NCBI GenBank assembly: GCA_003229115.1
Contig: QIHT01000178.1
Span: forward strand, 1 to 32,109
Direction of reading: 5' to 3'
DNA length: 32,109 nucleotides
Origin: Gammaproteobacteria bacterium
Lineage (GTDB): Bacteria > Pseudomonadota > Gammaproteobacteria > SZUA-229
Shown here: piece by piece, positions 18,974 through 31,948 of the stretch
Position numbering within the stretch: the stretch's first letter is position 1
Layout of the letters: each line of letters begins with the position of its first letter
The notes under the pieces: generated by a model
Told to the model about the DNA's origin: nothing
The model's input: only the letters and a program-made list of their open reading frames with translations
The model's database searches: none
Translations under genes and position numbers: made by a program

Positions 18974-19177
18974 ATGAACACTGAAGATAGTAAAAATAAA
19001 GAAAAATCATCGGCTGACACACCCGAAGAGAAGAGAAAGCTCAAAGACAGACGCGTAAGCCAGGGGCGAAGAGATAAGGTGCGCTTTGATGAAAAAGGCG
19101 GTGACCGACGCTCTGGTGTTGCCAGGCGCACGACAGACATGGGCTTCAGAGATCAGCCAGACGAAGATAGCCAGTAA
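18974..19177 (+). CDS. Small charged Arg-rich hypothetical protein, 67 residues
   Basis: AAGGTG lies seven bases before the ATG, a good ribosome site, which supports a real gene. The product has no signal peptide or hydrophobic segment and is almost entirely charged. It has three spaced arginine clusters (DRRVSQGRRDK, GDRRSGVARR) and an acidic N-terminus and C-terminus. The D-R-R-x-G-x-x-R-R pattern resembles short tails found in proteobacterial signalling proteins, but no domain is recognised. It could bind nucleic acid or act as a small adaptor. It lies upstream of the metal efflux genes with a 65-base gap and may or may not belong to them. Confidence 0.65.
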   Translation: MNTEDSKNKEKSSADTPEEKRKLKDRRVSQGRRDKVRFDEKGGDRRSGVARRTTDMGFRDQPDEDSQ

Positions 19178-19206
19178 ACAGGCGTTCCGCTGCCATACAC
19201 ACCAGA

Positions 19207-19236
19207 TTGTGAAAATACACGAAAATTTGCTAGACT
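19207..19236 (+). promoter_or_regulatory. Possible promoter of the metal efflux operon
   Basis: TTGTGA (19207-19212) and TAGACT (19231-19236) match four of six positions each of the -35 and -10 hexamers, with an 18-base spacer. A perfect 10-base palindrome AGACTAGTCT (19233-19242) overlaps the -10 and ends at the start codon of the first gene, and could be an operator. The support is modest. Confidence 0.35.
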
Positions 19237-19242
19237 AGTCTC

Positions 19243-19566
19243 ATGACACGGCTAAAAACATCAATATTAGCGCTGCTTATGCTATGCATTATCGGCTACA
19301 GTAGCGCATGGGCATTTGAAAGCCATACCATTGAAGCCGATGAAATCAACTATGTCACTGCCCTCAGTGATAAACAAGCTGTTGATCAGCACTCAGCTGA
19401 CAGCAAAATATGTGATCACAGTTGTCATGCTTTTGCACATATGCTGGCACTATGTACGCAGAACACTATTTCGTATGACACTAACAAATCCAGCGAAACT
19501 GTGAGTTTCTCGCAGAATTTAATCTCCCATATTCTTACCCCCGACCGAAAACCTCCCCGCGCATAA
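19243..19566 (+). CDS. Small secreted His/Cys protein, CzcI-like
   Basis: A 107-residue protein with a signal peptide (LLMLCIIGYSSAWA, cleavage near residue 24). The mature part has a metal-ligand cluster C57-D-H59-S-C61-H62-AFA-H66-MLAL-C71 and ends in LTPDRKPPRA. Small exported proteins with such a cluster and a proline-rich end precede czc-type efflux genes in other proteobacteria (CzcI) and are thought to modulate the system in the periplasm. The call rests on position, size and the cluster, not on strong sequence identity. The stop codon overlaps the first arm of the czcC leader fold, so translation of this gene probably affects czcC expression. Confidence 0.6.
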   Translation: MTRLKTSILALLMLCIIGYSSAWAFESHTIEADEINYVTALSDKQAVDQHSADSKICDHSCHAFAHMLALCTQNTISYDTNKSSETVSFSQNLISHILTPDRKPPRA

Positions 19567-19642
19567 TTCCTGAATATTACCGACAGGCGTCGGTTGTGAC
19601 ATAAGCTGTACGCTTATGTTGTGTTGTATTTGTACAGGAATT
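19565..19642 (+). promoter_or_regulatory. Three-stem leader that buries the czcC ribosome binding site
   Basis: A closing stem AATTCCTG (19565-19572) / CAGGAATT (19635-19642), perfect over 8 bp, encloses two hairpins: CCGAC-AGGC-GTCGG (19580-19593) and ACATAAGC-TGTAC-GCTTATGT (19599-19619). The 3' strand of the closing stem contains AGGA, the Shine-Dalgarno of czcC, eight bases before its ATG. The 5' strand begins inside the stop codon of the preceding gene. Confidence 0.65.
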
Positions 19643-19647
19643 AAAAC

Positions 19648-20910
19648 ATGTTTATTAAATTTTGTATCAAGCCCGGCTTGATCACTGCTCTGCTAACCGT
19701 CACCGTTGCTTATGCTGGAACAGTTAAAGCGGAAAAGACCAGATTCAATTTACAGCGCTGGTTAATTGAAAGTGTAGATAACAATCCCTCGGTGCTTGCA
19801 GCCAGTGCTGCTGTCGATGCTTCATCATTCCAGTTGATTGCTGCTGATAAGGCAATCTACAATCCGGAACTGGAGATTGACTCTGAAGATATCGATAATA
19901 TCACCACTACAAGCATTGGCATTAGCCAGACTATTGACTGGGGCAATACTCGCGAAGCAAGAACCGAAATGGCCAGTTCTCAATCAGCCGCAGCGCGGTT
20001 TGGTTTTGAATCAACACGTCGCAATATTGCTGTAGACCTATTAGCAGGCCTTTCTGATTACCACACGAACTCTGCTCTAAAAGATCTTGCCGAACAAGGT
20101 AACAAACTGATGGAGCATTCTGCTGAACTGGCAAAACAACGGTTTGATGCGGGTGACCTGGGAAAAGTTGAAGTTGATCTTGCCAACCTGACTTATGCGC
20201 AGGCACGCTTTAGGTTAGCTGATGCTACTTCAAACCATGCACGCGCAGTGCAAAACCTTATTGCACTAACTGGAAATACCGACCGGAACTGGCCAGTATT
20301 TATTTCAGAGTTACCGGATCCAAAATCTGTAACCCAGGATGCCGATAAAGTCGTTCAACAGCTACCGGTGATGCGAGAAATAACATCCAGAGTGGCCGCT
20401 GCCCAGGCGAGGATAAAAGTGCAAATAGGCAAAAGCTCCGTAAACCCGACTATTGCCATTCGCGCAGGCAAAGAAGAAGACCTTAACCTGGTAGGGCTGA
20501 CTTTTTCCATTCCTTTACAGGTAAGAAACAATTTTAAAGCAGAAGTTGATGCCGCTAATGCAGAAATGATACAGGCAGAACGTGAAGCCATTGACGCTTA
20601 TCGAAAGCTCAAGAGCAAACTTGAAATTGCAATGGTTTCCTATGGCCTAAGTCGTGAAGCATGGCTTGCCTGGGAAAAATCAGGCGCAGGCAGTCTTAGT
20701 GGACAAATTAAATTACTGGAACGCCTGTGGAAAGCTGGCGAACTCAGTACCACCGATTATTTAGTACAACTTAATCAGGCACTGGATACCAAAACCAGCG
20801 CTATCAAACAACGTGGTCAGATGTGGACAAACTGGACCGAATGGCTTGTCGCTTCGGGAAAGATTGAACACTGGTTACCAGCAACAAACAATAAGAGAGA
20901 AAACAAATGA
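19648..20910 (+). CDS. czcC: Outer-membrane channel of heavy-metal efflux pump (CzcC/CusC family)
   Basis: A 420-residue TolC-like outer-membrane factor. A signal peptide (LITALLTVTVAYAGTVKA, cut near residue 28) precedes two OEP repeats of long helices with the SLSQTIDWG-type strand (GISQTIDWGNTREAR, about 92-106) and the second-half segment AGELSTTDYLVQLNQALDTKTSAIKQRG typical of CzcC. It forms the exit duct of a tripartite pump with CzcB and CzcA. The stop overlaps the czcB start by four bases (ATGA). Its ribosome site lies in the leader fold upstream. Confidence 0.9.
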   Translation: MFIKFCIKPGLITALLTVTVAYAGTVKAEKTRFNLQRWLIESVDNNPSVLAASAAVDASSFQLIAADKAIYNPELEIDSEDIDNITTTSIGISQTIDWGNTREARTEMASSQSAAARFGFESTRRNIAVDLLAGLSDYHTNSALKDLAEQGNKLMEHSAELAKQRFDAGDLGKVEVDLANLTYAQARFRLADATSNHARAVQNLIALTGNTDRNWPVFISELPDPKSVTQDADKVVQQLPVMREITSRVAAAQARIKVQIGKSSVNPTIAIRAGKEEDLNLVGLTFSIPLQVRNNFKAEVDAANAEMIQAEREAIDAYRKLKSKLEIAMVSYGLSREAWLAWEKSGAGSLSGQIKLLERLWKAGELSTTDYLVQLNQALDTKTSAIKQRGQMWTNWTEWLVASGKIEHWLPATNNKRENK

Positions 20911-22301
20911 ATATCGTCACATTAAAAATTTTACTCCTGCTGGGTTTTTTAACTTTAGCACCCTATTCAATTGCTGCTGATGACCACGATAAGAATCACG
21001 ATGATCACGGCCACGATGAATCTGGTCATGAACAAAAAGGTCATGAAGAAGAAGTTCATGCAGAGCATGGTCATGAGGAAGCAGATAAACACGAAGAAAG
21101 TAGCCATGAAGAAGGCGGTCATGAACATGCGGAAGGTGGTCATGAAGAAGATGGGCATGAAGAAGGAGATAAACACGAAGAAAGTAGCCATGAGGAAGGC
21201 GGCCATGAACATGCGGAAAGTGGTCATGAAGAAGATGAGCATGAAGAAGGAGAGCACGCTGGTCACGGTGAAGGTGGCCATGAGGAAGAATCAATTAAAC
21301 TGACTGCCGAACAGATGGCTGTTGCCGGCATTGTCAGCGAAGCGATTGTTATGAAAAATATCTCTGAAGAAATTAACGCTCCCGGCGAAGTCGTGTTAAA
21401 CGCCTATAAAACCACTTCTGTTACACCGCGCGTTTCAGCACAGGTTGTCAGACGTTATGCAAAACTGGGTGATGTGGTTACTGCCGGTCAGCCATTGTTG
21501 ACGCTGTCCAGCGTTGAAATGGCTACTGCACAGGGTGATCTTCTGGTGACTCATCGTGAATGGCTGCGAGTAAAAAAACTGGGTAGAAAAATTGTCTCAG
21601 CACAACGTTATACCGAAGCCCGGGTAAAACATGAGCAGGCTAAAGCCCGCACTCTGGCTTATGGCATGACATCAAAACAGGCGAATGAATACATGAAAAT
21701 TGGTGATGCCTCAAAAGCGAACGGTAGCTTTCAGTTAATGGCACCACAGGATGGTACGGTGATTAAAGATGATTTTATTCTGGGCGAATTGATTGATCCG
21801 GGTCGGGTTTTGTTTGTTATCAGCGATGAATCGGTACTTTGGGTAGAAGCAAAATTAACCCCTTCTCAGGTGCAACTGGTTTCGCCGGGTAATTCTGTTT
21901 TGATTATTGCAGAGGGCAAAAAGTTTTCTGGAAAAGTGGTGCAGGTACATCATGCTCTGGATGAAAGCACGCGTACATTAGGTGTGCGAGTTGAATTTTC
22001 CAACCCAGATGATGCGCTTCACCCCGGCGTTTTTGTGCAGGCAAAAATCAGCAGTGATAATAATGCGCCAGCACTGGCGGTGCCGGTAAATGCCGTGTTA
22101 AGAAGCCCGGATGGTGACTGGATGGTGTTTGTCGAAAAACAGCCAGGTGAATTTGAAGCGCTGGAAGTCGAGCTGATACGAACAGTGGGTGGCATCAGTG
22201 TTATTGAAGGTCTGCAAGCCGGTACTCGCGTGGTAACACAAGGTGCTTTTTTTGTGCAATCCGAGTCTGCAAAAAGCGGCTTTGACGCGCACAACCACTA
22301 G
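20907..22301 (+). CDS. czcB: Membrane fusion protein of heavy-metal efflux pump with His/Glu-rich N-terminus (CzcB-like)
   Basis: A 464-residue periplasmic adaptor. After a signal peptide (cut near SIAA, residue 24), residues 25-125 are a His/Asp/Glu/Gly-rich segment with about 30 histidines in HEE and GHE units, suited to binding Zn, Co, Cd or Ni. The adaptor core follows: an IKLTAEQMAVAGIVSEAI strand, a lipoyl/barrel-sandwich half (VTPRVSAQVVRRYAKLGDVVTAGQPLL), a short helical hairpin, the second lipoyl half (GSFQLMAPQDGTVIKDDFILGE), a beta-barrel (VKVQVHH..TLGVRVEF-like) and the membrane-proximal end. Residues 60-115 contain two tandem 28-residue repeats. It is translationally coupled to czcC and 11 bases from czcA. 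Confidence 0.9.
   Translation: MNIVTLKILLLLGFLTLAPYSIAADDHDKNHDDHGHDESGHEQKGHEEEVHAEHGHEEADKHEESSHEEGGHEHAEGGHEEDGHEEGDKHEESSHEEGGHEHAESGHEEDEHEEGEHAGHGEGGHEEESIKLTAEQMAVAGIVSEAIVMKNISEEINAPGEVVLNAYKTTSVTPRVSAQVVRRYAKLGDVVTAGQPLLTLSSVEMATAQGDLLVTHREWLRVKKLGRKIVSAQRYTEARVKHEQAKARTLAYGMTSKQANEYMKIGDASKANGSFQLMAPQDGTVIKDDFILGELIDPGRVLFVISDESVLWVEAKLTPSQVQLVSPGNSVLIIAEGKKFSGKVVQVHHALDESTRTLGVRVEFSNPDDALHPGVFVQAKISSDNNAPALAVPVNAVLRSPDGDWMVFVEKQPGEFEALEVELIRTVGGISVIEGLQAGTRVVTQGAFFVQSESAKSGFDAHNH
21084..21251 (+). repeat. Two tandem 84-base repeats in the histidine-rich part of czcB
   Basis: Copy 1 (21084-21167) and copy 2 (21168-21251) differ at only a few positions; each starts GATAAACACGAAGAAAGTAG and encodes 28 residues beginning DKHEESSHEEGG. 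The period is a multiple of three, so copy number can vary without breaking the frame. Confidence 0.92.
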
Positions 22302-22312
22302 AGGCAAAAATC

Positions 22313-25300
22313 ATGTTAAATAAAATAATTGAAACAGCGGTAAGCAGCCGACTGCTGGTGGTGCTGGCATTGATTACAACCTTGTTTATCGGCTTTCTTG
22401 TTTTGCCGAAATTAAACCTTGATGCTTTTCCAGATGTCACCAATGTACAGGTGACGGTTAATACTGAAGCGCCGGGGCTGGCGGCCGAAGAAGTCGAGCA
22501 ACTTATCACGTTTCCCATTGAGGCGGTAATGTATGCGTTACCGGATGTCGAAGAAGTACGCTCCATTTCCAAAACCGGTTTATCCGGGGTAACCGTGGTG
22601 TTCACCGAAGGCACGGATATTTACTTTGCCAGACAACTGGTGTTTGAACGTTTACAGGCGGCAAAAGAGCAGATACCTAAGGGCGTTGGTACGCCAGGTA
22701 TGGGGCCGAATACATCAGGTCTGGGGCAGGTGTTCCAGTATATGATTCGTTCCGAAGTGCCGGGCGCTTATGACGCACTAACCTTACGCAGCCTGAACGA
22801 CTGGGTGGTAAAACTGTTGTTGATGCCGGTGGACGGTGTCACCGAAGTGCTGTCATTTGGTGGTGAAGTTCGCCAATACCAGGTACAGTTAAAACCGCAA
22901 CGTTTGTTGAGTTATGACCTGACACCGGACGATATCAGCGAAGCCATTGGAAATAATAATCGTAACGCCGGTGGCTGGTATTTAGATCGTGGTGCCGAGC
23001 AACTGGTTATACGCGGCGTCGGTTGGGTTCGTAGCGGTGAAGCAGGAATACGTGATATCGGCAATGTTCCGGTAAAACAAATTGATGGTACGGTGGTGCG
23101 TGTCAGTGATGTTGCCGATGTAGAGTTTGGCGCGGAGATTCGTCAGGGCGCGGTAACCATGACCCTGCGTGATGAAAACGGCAAAGCAAAACCACTGGGT
23201 GAAGTGGTGGTTGGCATCGTCATGAAACGCATGGGCTCAAACACCAAAGTAACCATCGATGGCGTGAAACAACGTTTGCCTATCATTCAACAGGCATTGC
23301 CTGACGGCGTTATTATTGATCCGTTTTATGACCAGTCTGATTTAGTTGATCAGGCTGTGGATACGGTTATCACTGCCTTATTGCAGGCGTTTGTTTTAAT
23401 CATCATTATATTAATGCTGTTTATGATGAATTTACGTGCCACTTTGCTAGTGCTGTTATCGATTCCTATTTCAATCGGTCTGGCACTGATAGCCATGGCG
23501 CAGCTAGGTGTTTCAGCAAATTTGATGTCTTTAGGCGGGTTGGCCATTGCGATTGGTATGCTGGTTGATGGTTCGGTGGTGATGATGGAAAATATTTTTT
23601 CACATCTTAGTCATCCGGACAGACAGCACGAAAACCATGCCAAACAAAAGATAGCGCTGAATGATGATGACCCCTTTGATGCTTCTCATGATTCGCACGG
23701 TATCGAACTGCGAATTCTAGAGGCGGCAAAAGAAGTCGGGCGACCGGTCTTTTTTGCGGTATTGATTGTGGGTATTGTTTTTGCGCCACTGTTTAGTCTG
23801 GAAGGTGTGGAAGGTAAAATGTTTCAGCCCATGGCTATTTCCATATTGCTTGCCATGGTTGGTGCGTTAGTGGTTGCGCTGGTAGTTATCCCTGCGTTGG
23901 CAACTTATATGTTTAAACAGGGCGTGGTTGAAAAACAAAGCCCTATATTAGTGCCGATAGAAGCACGTTACCGGGTATTGCTTAAACAGGCACTGCAAAA
24001 AAAATCGGTGGTAGTCATTTCATCGGTGGTATTGTTTTTTTCCTCATTGGCGTTATTACCTTTTTTAGGAACGGAGTTTGTGCCGGAACTAGAAGAAGGT
24101 ACCATCAATGTGCGAGTAACGCTGGCACCGTCATCCAGTTTAAACACAGCTCTGCTTATTGCCGAGAAGCTGGAAAAACAGCTACTCACTTTTCCTGAAG
24201 TGCTTTATGCATCGAGCCGTATCGGTCGTGCCGAAGTCGGCGGTGACCCGGAGCCAGTATCGAATATCGAAATTTTTATTGGTTTAAAACATGTTAGTGA
24301 ATGGAAAACAGCGGAGAATCGAAAAGCTCTGCAACTCATCATGGAAGAAAAAATGTCACTGGTGCCGGGTTTGTTGTTTAATTTCTCGCAGCCGATTGCA
24401 ACACGCGTTGATGAATTATTGTCCGGTGTAAAAGCTCAGTTGGCAATTAAACTGTTTGGTCCCGAGCTTGATGTACTGGTTGCCAAAGGCAAGGAAATTG
24501 AGGCACTGGTTAAAAATGTCGATGGTACCCGCGGCGTCGCACTGGAACAAACCGAAGGTGAAGCACAACTGGTGATAAGACCTGATCGTGATTTACTGGC
24601 GCGTTTTGGTGTGCCAGTGGATCAGGTGATGAGTCTGGTAAGTGACGCCATTGGCGGGCAGATGGCCGGTCAGGTGATTCGTGGTAACGAACGTTATGAC
24701 ATTTATGTACGCCTTGCAGAACAACATCGTAACAGTATCGAAGCGATACGCAGCTTGATATTACAGGCGGCAGATGGTGCCTGGGTTCGTCTCGGCGATG
24801 TCGCCACCGTGGCAATCGAATCCGGTCCACCGCAAATTCGTCGTGATGACGTGCAACGTCGTGTGGTCATTCAAAGCAATGTCGAAGGTCGTGACATGGG
24901 CGGACTGGTGGCTGAAATAGATCAGCGCATTCGTAGCGAAATCGATTTGCCTACGGGTTACAGTGTGGTGTTTGGTGGTCAGTTTAAAAACCAGCAACGT
25001 GCACAGGCACGGTTGATGGTTGTCGTACCTTTATCTCTGGGTTTGATTTTTCTGATGTTGTACTTCGCCTTTAACTCCGTCGGCCAGGCGCTGTTAATCA
25101 TGCTGAATGTGCCGCTGGCGTTAATCGGTGGCATCGCCGCGCTTTTTGTTTCGGGGCTGTATCTGTCAGTACCCGGTTCGATTGGTTTTATAACCTTACT
25201 GGGGGTGGCCGTGTTAAACGGCGTGGTCATGGTTAGTTCGATAAACCAGCGAATCGAAGGCGGGCAGGCAATCGAAGATGGCGTGTTTGATGGTGCCTTG

Positions 25301-25507
25301 TCGCGTTTGCGACCGGTATTGATGACAGCCATCACTTCCGCACTGGGTTTGATTCCATTATTAATGTCGAGCGGCGTAGGTTCAGAAATCCAGCAGCCAT
25401 TAGCCACTGTTGTGGTAGGCGGATTAATTTCATCAACCCTGTTAACGCTGTTCGTAGTGCCAGTGTTATATGAGCGATTCTCGCGGCATAAATATGCAAA
25501 CGGGTAA
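22313..25507 (+). CDS. czcA: HME-RND heavy-metal efflux transporter (CzcA/CusA family)
   Basis: A 1064-residue inner-membrane RND pump of full length with 12 predicted membrane helices and two large periplasmic loops (about 35-340 and 550-870). The start LNKIIETAVSSRLLVVLALI and PKLNLDAFPDVTNVQVTVNT are HME-RND signatures. In TM4, D419 and E426 (VDGSVVMMEN) match the proton-relay residues, but the first acidic residue of Zn/Co/Cd pumps (D402 of Cupriavidus CzcA) is A413, as in CusA. The CusA copper ligand M672 corresponds to E701 (RVDELLSG), so a divalent metal substrate is more likely. A His/Asp-rich cytoplasmic loop lies at about 430-465. GAGG precedes the start. Metal specificity is unsettled. 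Confidence 0.93.
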   Translation: MLNKIIETAVSSRLLVVLALITTLFIGFLVLPKLNLDAFPDVTNVQVTVNTEAPGLAAEEVEQLITFPIEAVMYALPDVEEVRSISKTGLSGVTVVFTEGTDIYFARQLVFERLQAAKEQIPKGVGTPGMGPNTSGLGQVFQYMIRSEVPGAYDALTLRSLNDWVVKLLLMPVDGVTEVLSFGGEVRQYQVQLKPQRLLSYDLTPDDISEAIGNNNRNAGGWYLDRGAEQLVIRGVGWVRSGEAGIRDIGNVPVKQIDGTVVRVSDVADVEFGAEIRQGAVTMTLRDENGKAKPLGEVVVGIVMKRMGSNTKVTIDGVKQRLPIIQQALPDGVIIDPFYDQSDLVDQAVDTVITALLQAFVLIIIILMLFMMNLRATLLVLLSIPISIGLALIAMAQLGVSANLMSLGGLAIAIGMLVDGSVVMMENIFSHLSHPDRQHENHAKQKIALNDDDPFDASHDSHGIELRILEAAKEVGRPVFFAVLIVGIVFAPLFSLEGVEGKMFQPMAISILLAMVGALVVALVVIPALATYMFKQGVVEKQSPILVPIEARYRVLLKQALQKKSVVVISSVVLFFSSLALLPFLGTEFVPELEEGTINVRVTLAPSSSLNTALLIAEKLEKQLLTFPEVLYASSRIGRAEVGGDPEPVSNIEIFIGLKHVSEWKTAENRKALQLIMEEKMSLVPGLLFNFSQPIATRVDELLSGVKAQLAIKLFGPELDVLVAKGKEIEALVKNVDGTRGVALEQTEGEAQLVIRPDRDLLARFGVPVDQVMSLVSDAIGGQMAGQVIRGNERYDIYVRLAEQHRNSIEAIRSLILQAADGAWVRLGDVATVAIESGPPQIRRDDVQRRVVIQSNVEGRDMGGLVAEIDQRIRSEIDLPTGYSVVFGGQFKNQQRAQARLMVVVPLSLGLIFLMLYFAFNSVGQALLIMLNVPLALIGGIAALFVSGLYLSVPGSIGFITLLGVAVLNGVVMVSSINQRIEGGQAIEDGVFDGALSRLRPVLMTAITSALGLIPLLMSSGVGSEIQQPLATVVVGGLISSTLLTLFVVPVLYERFSRHKYANG

Positions 25508-28109: not shown

Positions 28110-28994
28110 ATGAAACAACACAACCATCACCACGATATCAGTTCACAACGTATCGGCGTTGTCTTTTTTCTTAATTTTTTCTTCACCATCATCGAATTTA
28201 TCGGTGGAATCCTGACCAACAGCACTGCCATTATGGCGGATGCCGTGCATGATCTTGGCGATACCCTGTCAATTGGCCTCGCCTGGTTTTTAAACCGACT
28301 CAGTAAAAAACACCCTAACGATGAATTTACCTATGGCTATTACCGGTTTTCATTAATCGGTGCATTGATTAACGGCGTGGTATTAATCTCCGGTTCAGCA
28401 TGGGTGCTTTCAGAAGCCATCCCCAAATTACTGGAGCCACAAATGCCTCATGCCCAGGGCATGTTCTGGCTGGCTATTCTGGGTGTTACCGTTAACGGAT
28501 ATGCTGCCTGGAAAATCAACAAAGGACAAACACTCAATGAAAGAATTTTAAACTGGCACTTACTGGAAGACGTACTGGGCTGGGTCAGCGTACTTATCGT
28601 CAGTATTTTGTTACTATTTTTTGACTGGCCAATACTCGACCCGATATTATCTATTGCGTTTACATTATTTATATTAATAAACGTTGCAAAAACCACCCGT
28701 CAGACCATTAAACTATTTATGCAATCGTCCCCCGATGAGAAAATGCTGAATGAAATACGTAATAAACTAACATCACTTGAAAATGTAAACGCGATTCATC
28801 ATTTACACCTGTGGTCACTGGATGGTGAAAAAAATGTTCTTACCGCACATCTGGAAATCAATCATATGATTTCAGCAGATGACCAGATAAAAACTAAACA
28901 GATAATCAATAAACTACTGTCTGAATTCTCACTGGCACATACAACGATAGAGTTTGAATTACCGGAAGAGGCCTGTAGAGATAAGGAAGAATAG
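28110..28994 (+). CDS. czcD: Cation diffusion facilitator, zinc-type exporter
   Basis: A 294-residue inner-membrane CDF antiporter with six helices. The TM2 site is H47xxxD51 (ADAVHDLGD) and the TM5 site is HLLED, giving the HxxxD/HxxxD arrangement of zinc-transporting CDFs. The N-terminus has a short His cluster (KQHNHHHD) and the C-terminal cytoplasmic domain (about 205-290) has the HHLHLWSLDG strand. It should export Zn2+, and perhaps Cd2+ or Co2+, from cytoplasm to periplasm, feeding the upstream CzcCBA-like pump. No strong Shine-Dalgarno sequence is seen; a GATAAT (about 28095-28100) lies so close that a leaderless message is possible. Confidence 0.9.
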   Translation: MKQHNHHHDISSQRIGVVFFLNFFFTIIEFIGGILTNSTAIMADAVHDLGDTLSIGLAWFLNRLSKKHPNDEFTYGYYRFSLIGALINGVVLISGSAWVLSEAIPKLLEPQMPHAQGMFWLAILGVTVNGYAAWKINKGQTLNERILNWHLLEDVLGWVSVLIVSILLLFFDWPILDPILSIAFTLFILINVAKTTRQTIKLFMQSSPDEKMLNEIRNKLTSLENVNAIHHLHLWSLDGEKNVLTAHLEINHMISADDQIKTKQIINKLLSEFSLAHTTIEFELPEEACRDKEE

Positions 28995-30467: not shown

Positions 30468-31948
30468 GTCGAACCTGAAATATTAGTTTGAGGCATTTAA
30501 GCCCGTGCCATATTGTATCTATAAAAGATGTTTTTCAACATTATCTTTATTTGTTGTACTTTTTTCAGCCAAAAAATAACCTCCCTCATCCACTTTTTGA
30601 AGTTAAAGGCAGCGGCTGCCATGATCAGGTTGATTTGATCGCCAGTAAAGCCTTTTAGGAAGTTCCTTTTGAGTCGGTGATCGCTCTTTAAGTGGCCGAT
30701 CACCGGCTCAATGGCTGCTCGTCGCCTAAATCGTTTTCTTGCCAGTGCCATGGCTTCCATTGATGCATTTTTTCTTGCAGGCTTTGGTGTCACTATCTGA
30801 GTATCATTCACCTTTGATTTTCCTCGGTAACCTCTGTCACCAATACCAACCGATGGAGCACGACCTGTTAAGCGTTTAACTTGTGCCAGAACGGCTGGCA
30901 CTGTATGACCATCAAAAATATTTTTCTCAAACGCCAGCGCGCCAATAATAATGCCGGAGTCCCGTGTCGTTGTAATGGATGCCTTTGTGCCAAACTCGTA
31001 ACGTTTATGGGCTTTACCTTTGCTCATACAGTAAACATGATGTTCGTGCAGGCTGTACAGTTTATTTTTACTTCCACGCTTTTGTAACAGCATGCGCAGG
31101 TACAATGCCAGACGCTCACTATAAATATGCAATTGTTCCAATGTCATTTTACGCTGTATTTCTCGAAGCAATCGACCACTGATGGTTTTTAAACGCTTTA
31201 CTGCATGTCGTGCGCGTTTGCGATTCTTTGGGTGACCCGCAAATCGGGTACAAAGTTTAAGCCGCTTCACTTCTTTTTCATAGGTACGGGTCAACGTAAT
31301 ATGTTCTGCTCGTGCAATCTTTAAGAGATGATGATGTATTTTTAGGTACTGCTTCGCATCGGTGGGAAAGGTGATGTTTTTTTCTTGTACCGTGGTGTCA
31401 ATACACATTTCATCTTCGGCTATTTTTTCTTGGTGCATCGCAATAGAAACACACAGAATTTTTTCAAAGCCATCACTTCCTATGCGTTTTCTAAACTTGG
31501 TTAAGCTCGTCGGATTGCAGGGAAATTCCCATTGAAATTCTGCTTCACCGGTAAAAGCCTGGTAATAAGGATCTTGCACCCAGCGTTGCACCAGTACTTC
31601 ATCTGACAGGTCTTCCATGTGTTTTAAAATCGATAGCCCAACCATTAAACGAAGGTGTTTTGCGGGCTTTCCTAAATGCGAGTAGAGCGGCGAAAATGCT
31701 TCATCAAAAACAGACCAGTCAATCTGTTTTGCCAGCCGAAGAAGTGGATGCTTTGGGTTAAGCTGGTCGATTAAATCGGCAAACAAAAAATTGCCTTGAG
31801 GGGTATTACGGCTCTTTGGTTTGCTCAATGGTCACCTCTGATTCGTCCAGGTTTTTCTTGTTTTAGGGGCTTTTCTGGACGTTTATTCTAACACAATCAA
31901 ATGATTATTTGTTATAAATCAGTAGGTTATGAATATTTCAGGCTCGAC
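30468..31948 (-). mobile_element. IS5-family insertion sequence
   Basis: A transposase gene lies between near-perfect terminal inverted repeats. The left end TAGTCGAACCTGAAATATT (30466-30484) faces the right end AATATTTCAGGCTCGACTA (31932-31950), with one mismatch in 19. The six bases TATTTA flank both ends if the repeats are taken as 17 bases (30462-30467 and 31949-31954), which would be a target duplication; alternatively TA is the duplicated target. The element is about 1.48 kb and complete. It inserted about 100 bases from a tRNA gene. No second copy is in the window. Confidence 0.8.
30497..31828 (-). CDS. IS5-family DDE transposase
   Basis: A 443-residue transposase. An N-terminal DUF772-like domain (about 25-120: DQLNPKHPLLRLAKQIDW, LSILKHMEDLSDE) precedes the DDE catalytic domain with D144 (IDTTVQEK), D331 (IGDRGYRGK) and E374. 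The IS5-type R-x3-E-x6-K signature is met by R370, E374 and K381 (AAIEPVIGHLK). The start codon is TTG, with AGAGG six bases upstream; no ATG is available near the expected N-terminus. The frame is open throughout, so the element may be active. The last codons run to within about 13 bases of the left terminal repeat. Confidence 0.9.
   Translation of the reverse strand: MSKPKSRNTPQGNFLFADLIDQLNPKHPLLRLAKQIDWSVFDEAFSPLYSHLGKPAKHLRLMVGLSILKHMEDLSDEVLVQRWVQDPYYQAFTGEAEFQWEFPCNPTSLTKFRKRIGSDGFEKILCVSIAMHQEKIAEDEMCIDTTVQEKNITFPTDAKQYLKIHHHLLKIARAEHITLTRTYEKEVKRLKLCTRFAGHPKNRKRARHAVKRLKTISGRLLREIQRKMTLEQLHIYSERLALYLRMLLQKRGSKNKLYSLHEHHVYCMSKGKAHKRYEFGTKASITTTRDSGIIIGALAFEKNIFDGHTVPAVLAQVKRLTGRAPSVGIGDRGYRGKSKVNDTQIVTPKPARKNASMEAMALARKRFRRRAAIEPVIGHLKSDHRLKRNFLKGFTGDQINLIMAAAAFNFKKWMREVIFWLKKVQQIKIMLKNIFYRYNMARA

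Follow-up and report, generated by a model that had tools for sequence, protein, structure and literature searches.

A covarying stem pairs the stop region of a small CutF-like gene with the czcC Shine-Dalgarno sequence and may form a nascent-peptide translational switch

Czc efflux pumps have been studied mainly as transcriptionally controlled systems. The question raised by the czcCBA locus of contig QIHT01000178.1 from a gammaproteobacterium of lineage SZUA-229 (the whole 32,109-nt stretch analysed is referred to as the window; the leader and the operon lie on its + strand) is whether the RNA in front of czcC hides the ribosome-binding site of this gene and, if so, what opens it. The ORF list, the relatives and the protein features identify a small upstream gene (19243–19566; 107 aa), which is followed after a gap of 81 nt by czcC (19648–20910, ATG at 19648), encoding an outer-membrane efflux protein (OEP, PF02321; Pfam E 2.3e-31). 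The ORF list and Pfam place czcB, encoding an adaptor with a long His-rich N-terminus, at 20907–22301. Since 4 nt (ATGA) are shared by its start and the czcC stop, control of czcC should extend to czcB. The third gene, czcA (22313–25507), was assigned by domain search and pump residues as an RND pump whose nearest solved relatives are ZneA and CusA. A promoter scan found nothing, DNA comparison revealed no second copy in the same genome, and tblastn detected no mobile plasmid copies of the small gene. A hairpin flagged as a terminator by a loose scan (19595–19623; 2 found, 1.0 ± 1.2 expected) lacks a clean T run and was rejected.

In silico folding of the leader predicted a closing stem of nine contiguous pairs, formed by TAATTCCTG (19564–19572) and CAGGAATTA (19635–19643); the stem of the original prediction was therefore recovered, at a length of 9 bp instead of the 8 bp proposed. 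Its other two claims about this helix were borne out. The 5′ arm contains the complete TAA stop codon of the preceding gene (19564–19566), and the 3′ arm holds the czcC Shine-Dalgarno (SD) sequence AGGA (19636–19639, 8 nt 5′ of the ATG), which is paired with a probability of about 0.99 or more. The closing pairs have probabilities of 0.80–0.995 in a 116-nt fold and are maintained in 321- and 518-nt contexts; whole-leader folding gives P 1.0 for pairing of the SD with the stop arm. The energy of the fold (−29.3) compares with −22.0 ± 3.3 for dinucleotide shuffles (z −2.25). A stop/SD duplex as strong or stronger was found in 4 of 58 co-directional gaps taken from 20 sampled stretches of the same genome, the present gap included. 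The window sequence alone is thus insufficient as proof, and, this evidence being modest, a cross-species comparison was used instead. With the 5′ arm covered, a weak local hairpin (−5.1 kcal/mol) between the SD and the start of czcC becomes possible; its strength is within chance, and it was rejected as a second lock.

The interior of the fold is less constant. The two inner hairpins of the original prediction, CCGAC AGGC GTCGG (19580–19593; P 0.28) and ACATAAGC TGTAC GCTTATGT (19599–19619), constitute a 28% alternative in the window, where the best three-way fold (−28.1) is 1.2 kcal/mol weaker than a fold with a one-hairpin interior (−29.3). Equivalents of both hairpins occur in the near clade (L030, L031, L166, L169, L006 and L007), in which the closing stem plus two hairpins appear in >96% of sampled structures. 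In the wider set, one inner hairpin (33 loci) is more frequent than two (19 loci), and the interior varies among relatives in both sequence and helix number. The conserved element is the closing stem, and the three-way shape, as first described, is a feature of the near clade.

Analysis of the protein encoded by the upstream gene revealed a hydrophobic, signal-peptide-like N-terminus ending in AWA, conserved among its relatives, and the C-terminus KPPRA*, with the Pro-Pro codons (P104 and P105; 19552–19557), a putative pause site, placed two codons before the stop. Between them lies the putative metal-binding motif CDHSCHAFAH (codons 57–66; 19411–19440), comprising C57-D-H-S-C61-H62 plus H66, whose residues C57, H59, C61, H62 and H66 are invariant in 11 near relatives. 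A Pro-Pro (PP) pair is present within the last 15 residues of all 80 relatives compared (80/80) and is followed by exactly two residues in 66 of them; in 51 of 67 proteins, PP lies at a distance of 43 from the Cys of the CH..H motif. The window protein has <150 aa, PP in its last 15 residues and a CxxxC metal motif, features by which CutF-like proteins are defined in PMC9973294, and on these characters it is classed as CutF-like, with a putative metal motif. It has no Pfam or NCBIfam match above cut-off. DUF2946 (PF11162) matched neither this protein nor anything in the window genome at E ≤ 0.1, and was weakly matched by 10 of 42 relatives (best 2.8e-5).

A small gene of this kind also stands in front of czcC homologues in the same family. 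Searching with a profile of this gene detected relatives in the class (83 of 369 genomes), the phylum (32 of 398) and the order (20 of 54). The initial parse covered 92 loci; most of them had an OEP-like gene next, and the gap was typically 70–90 nt. The full comparison set comprised 105 loci, mostly from Gammaproteobacteria with some from other Pseudomonadota. Small genes ending in PPRA or PPRG were also seen 55–71 nt before an efflux gene at six loci outside the class (L135, L137, L139, L140, L150 and L151), and the arrangement therefore extends beyond Gammaproteobacteria. At three loci (L069, L070 and L181) the CutF-like gene directly precedes a czcB-like adaptor gene instead of czcC, which indicates that leaders of this type stand before different first genes of RND operons. 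At L105, L143, L178 and L183, small genes of a similar kind, with Cys/His and a PP end, appear to precede other genes, the next gene apparently encoding a secreted protein of 142–145 aa at two of the four loci and a porin-like protein at the other two.

Covariation of the two arms was examined by comparing true with swapped pairs. In the first test (80 loci; 18 nt from the stop codon against the 24 nt before the start) the mean duplex energy was −9.8 for true and −6.4 for swapped pairs (z −12.9; 0/100,000 permutations), and across all 105 loci the true stop and SD arms again bound better than swapped ones (z −13.5; 0/20,000 swaps). These permutation figures ignore tree structure; kinship is addressed by a non-redundant set of 79 loci (<45% identity in the upstream protein), which gave z −11.6, and by a slide control. 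Sliding the windows located the signal essentially only at stop+0..+14 against start−20..0. At least 9 of 10 pairs are formed in 34 of the 105 leaders, compared with 6.7 after swapping (register fitted equally in both), and each position from stop+3 to stop+9 shows three or more Watson-Crick pair types in this set. When whole leaders were folded, the mean probability of SD/stop-arm pairing was 0.66; swapping the arms lowered it to 0.35 (Wilcoxon p 6e-10). Such pairing did not reach P > 0.5 in about 22 of 77 loci, in some of which the SD pairs instead with the codons just 3′ of PP.

The seven nearest leaders show double-sided compensatory changes at 5 of their 13 closing pairs, with 90% of cells paired, a level reached by 0 of 500 shuffles; a slide of one column lowers this value to 50–59%. 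The original prediction had called for covariation in all three stems and had staked the fold on the existence of compensatory changes. These were found, and decisively, in the closing stem (5/13 double changes; z −13.5 for the arms), while the inner hairpins recur in the near clade but not generally. The stop/SD closing stem is real and biologically meaningful.

The position of the anti-SD arm bears on how the stem is opened. Where two residues follow PP, the centre of the anti-SD is found 5 nt into the stop region, at about 14 nt from the second Pro codon. Where four or six follow, it usually lies 8–13 nt from the Pro codon, within the reading frame, and with three its position is mixed among loci. 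This trend, drawn from about a dozen loci, some of them related, hints that the arm tends to follow the Pro-Pro codons rather than the stop, a placement more in line with opening of the stem by a ribosome that is held near PP. In one subgroup (L086, L088, L099 and L027) the small protein ends in PPRLL.. or PPQLL.., and the Leu-Leu codons (CTCCTC-like) after PP apparently serve as an in-frame anti-SD. A footprint model, in which the ribosome covers 12 nt starting at the first position of the A-site codon, showed that the stem is still 91% paired when the A site holds the second Pro, so that a pause exactly there would come too early. Once the A site is occupied by the following Arg codon, or by the stop, the stem is gone; a hold just past PP and termination would therefore both open it.

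A CutF-type translational switch ahead of czcC is the probable explanation of these features. According to this model, the small upstream gene would yield a nascent peptide that is exported, carries a Cys/His metal site and has Pro-Pro at its end. While the end of the small gene is free of ribosomes, the stop region would pair with the czcC SD, and czcC, together with the overlapping czcB, would be closed. If a ribosome is held at this end or slightly beyond it, the 5′ arm would be covered and the SD freed. By analogy with CutF, metal bound to the Cys/His motif emerging in the periplasm might prolong this hold, and the pump would then be made when metal is in excess. We infer from this analogy the pausing, the metal response and its direction; the identity of the metal is read from the pump. 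A fuller version, in which a switch of this type senses periplasmic Zn, Cd or Co and induces CzcCBA across Gammaproteobacteria, with the arm set by Pro-Pro and not by the stop, is advanced tentatively, at somewhat less than an even chance.

The original prediction suggested that the fold could couple czcC to the small His/Cys protein or respond to metal or another ligand; the sequestered SD and the link to the small gene held up, and neither simple termination coupling nor a ligand-binding RNA emerged as the best reading. In plain translational coupling, a ribosome terminating at the upstream stop would melt the stem so that czcC initiates, and the upstream protein would be a periplasmic metal binder that senses nothing during its synthesis. 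The stem does overlap the stop, the footprint model has the entire arm covered by a ribosome that terminates, and conservation of the fold needs no stalling by itself. However, the near-universal PP and the fixed spacing between motif and PP would then be superfluous, the anti-SD lies mostly in the post-PP codons at the few loci with PP 4–6 residues before the stop, and the CutF precedent (PMC9973294) points the other way. Coupling of this kind is accordingly considered unlikely, although it carries some weight, and the nascent-peptide switch is favoured over it: the near-universal C-terminal PP (80/80), together with an arm that tends to stay with the PP codons where these lie further from the stop, makes the latter the best reading.

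The remaining explanations are less credible. Control of the CruR type, in which stalling on the upstream peptide alters Rho-dependent termination between the genes and the stem is secondary, is improbable: CruR is a DUF2946 protein that acts in this way (PMC9426467), and 10 of 42 relatives match DUF2946, but the gap is 81 nt here against 162 in cruR, and, with termination as the target, the SD-specific covariation would be difficult to account for. A riboswitch, with the RNA alone sensing a metal or other ligand, would account for a closed multi-helix fold that hides the SD, yet it is more improbable still, given no Rfam match at E ≤ 1 (19000–20000), an interior conserved neither in sequence nor in helix number, with one inner hairpin in most relatives, and SD covariation confined to the stem arms. 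A role of the stem in processing or stability of the mRNA, or a fold due to chance, can hardly be entertained. Either would suit the window taken alone (z −2.25, with 4 of 58 same-genome gaps pairing as well), but not the SD-centred covariation seen across about 100 genomes.

The closest known system is CutF of Rhodobacter capsulatus, described in PMC9973294 as a copper sensor acting as a nascent exported chain, which controls the following gene through its proline end and a stem-loop. According to the same paper, translation of CutF, its Sec signal, the CxxxC motif and the proline end are all required for Cu-dependent production of CutO; the cutO SD is hidden by the stem-loop, and mutating the anti-SD or opening the stem makes the CutF features dispensable. 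The proline end alone caused no strong stall in E. coli, and OEP (CusC/CzcC) genes are the commonest neighbours downstream of CutF-like genes, with short gaps. The present locus resembles CutF-CutO in its small, putatively exported CxxxC protein with C-terminal prolines, short gap, SD-shielding stem, adjacent metal gene and logic of gene order. It differs in that the next gene of the CutO system encodes a multicopper oxidase (a Tat substrate) and the metal is Cu, whereas a divalent-type OEP/RND efflux operon follows here; the motif also contains extra His (CDHSCH..AH), the anti-SD arm starts on the stop codon, and covariation has been demonstrated. The statement that no such leader had been described is not supported in that form: the CutF/cutO stem-loop is of the same design, and CutF-like genes before OEP/CzcC genes are already reported in PMC9973294. 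What seems new is the covariation of the stem, the association with pumps that lack a copper-type Met triad, and the hint that the anti-SD arm is positioned by PP. A literature search, thin on subscription journals, found no test of the mechanism in a czc/OEP operon.

Other systems share single elements of the design. CruR of Bordetella pertussis (PMC9426467) is likewise an upstream ORF with a Cys metal motif and RAPP near its C-terminus at a fixed spacing, as has been reported for both CruR and CutF. It differs from the present locus in that Cu represses via Rho termination, the gap is 162 nt and a TonB-dependent importer lies downstream, and the window protein falls below the DUF2946 cut-off. 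SecM, VemP and MifM, as summarised in PMC9973294, are exported nascent chains that, when held at their C-terminus, open a stem over the SD of the next gene, but they sense export activity instead of metal and use other arrest sequences. CzcI of Cupriavidus metallidurans is also a small protein encoded upstream of czcCBA; however, PMC9973294 describes it as having no C-terminal proline motif. The NiCo (czcD) riboswitch is a structured leader of a metal-efflux gene, whereas the leader studied here has no Rfam match and its conservation is limited to the stop/SD stem.

The metal was approached through the pump. At the positions of the CusA methionine triad, M573/M623/M672, the window CzcA has R, N and E, and all 21 relatives read have R, N/Y/V and E; the Cu(I)-type triad is absent from the window pump and from these relatives. 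A pump of this kind points to divalent metals (Zn, Co or Cd) rather than Cu, a suggestion that derives from the pump residues. His-rich N-termini are found in the window CzcB and in most of the others read. In the window, this stretch (20907–21300) is very long, near-repetitive and rich in His and Glu (HEEGGHEHAE-like units).

A covarying stem that hides the SD, combined with a predicted exported metal-motif peptide in about 100 genomes, suggests that many Czc pumps are also gated at translation by a ribosome-bound peptide. This would extend a copper mechanism known from one tested operon (CutF) to divalent-metal efflux, and it provides a testable sequence rule: metal motif, about 43 residues, Pro-Pro, arm, SD. 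Elsewhere in the window, a probable CDF (cation-diffusion-facilitator, CzcD-like) gene lies at 28110–28994, 2.6 kb 3′ of czcA, and would fit a divalent-metal locus. A probable IS transposase gene is located at 30497–31828 on the − strand, close to the contig end.
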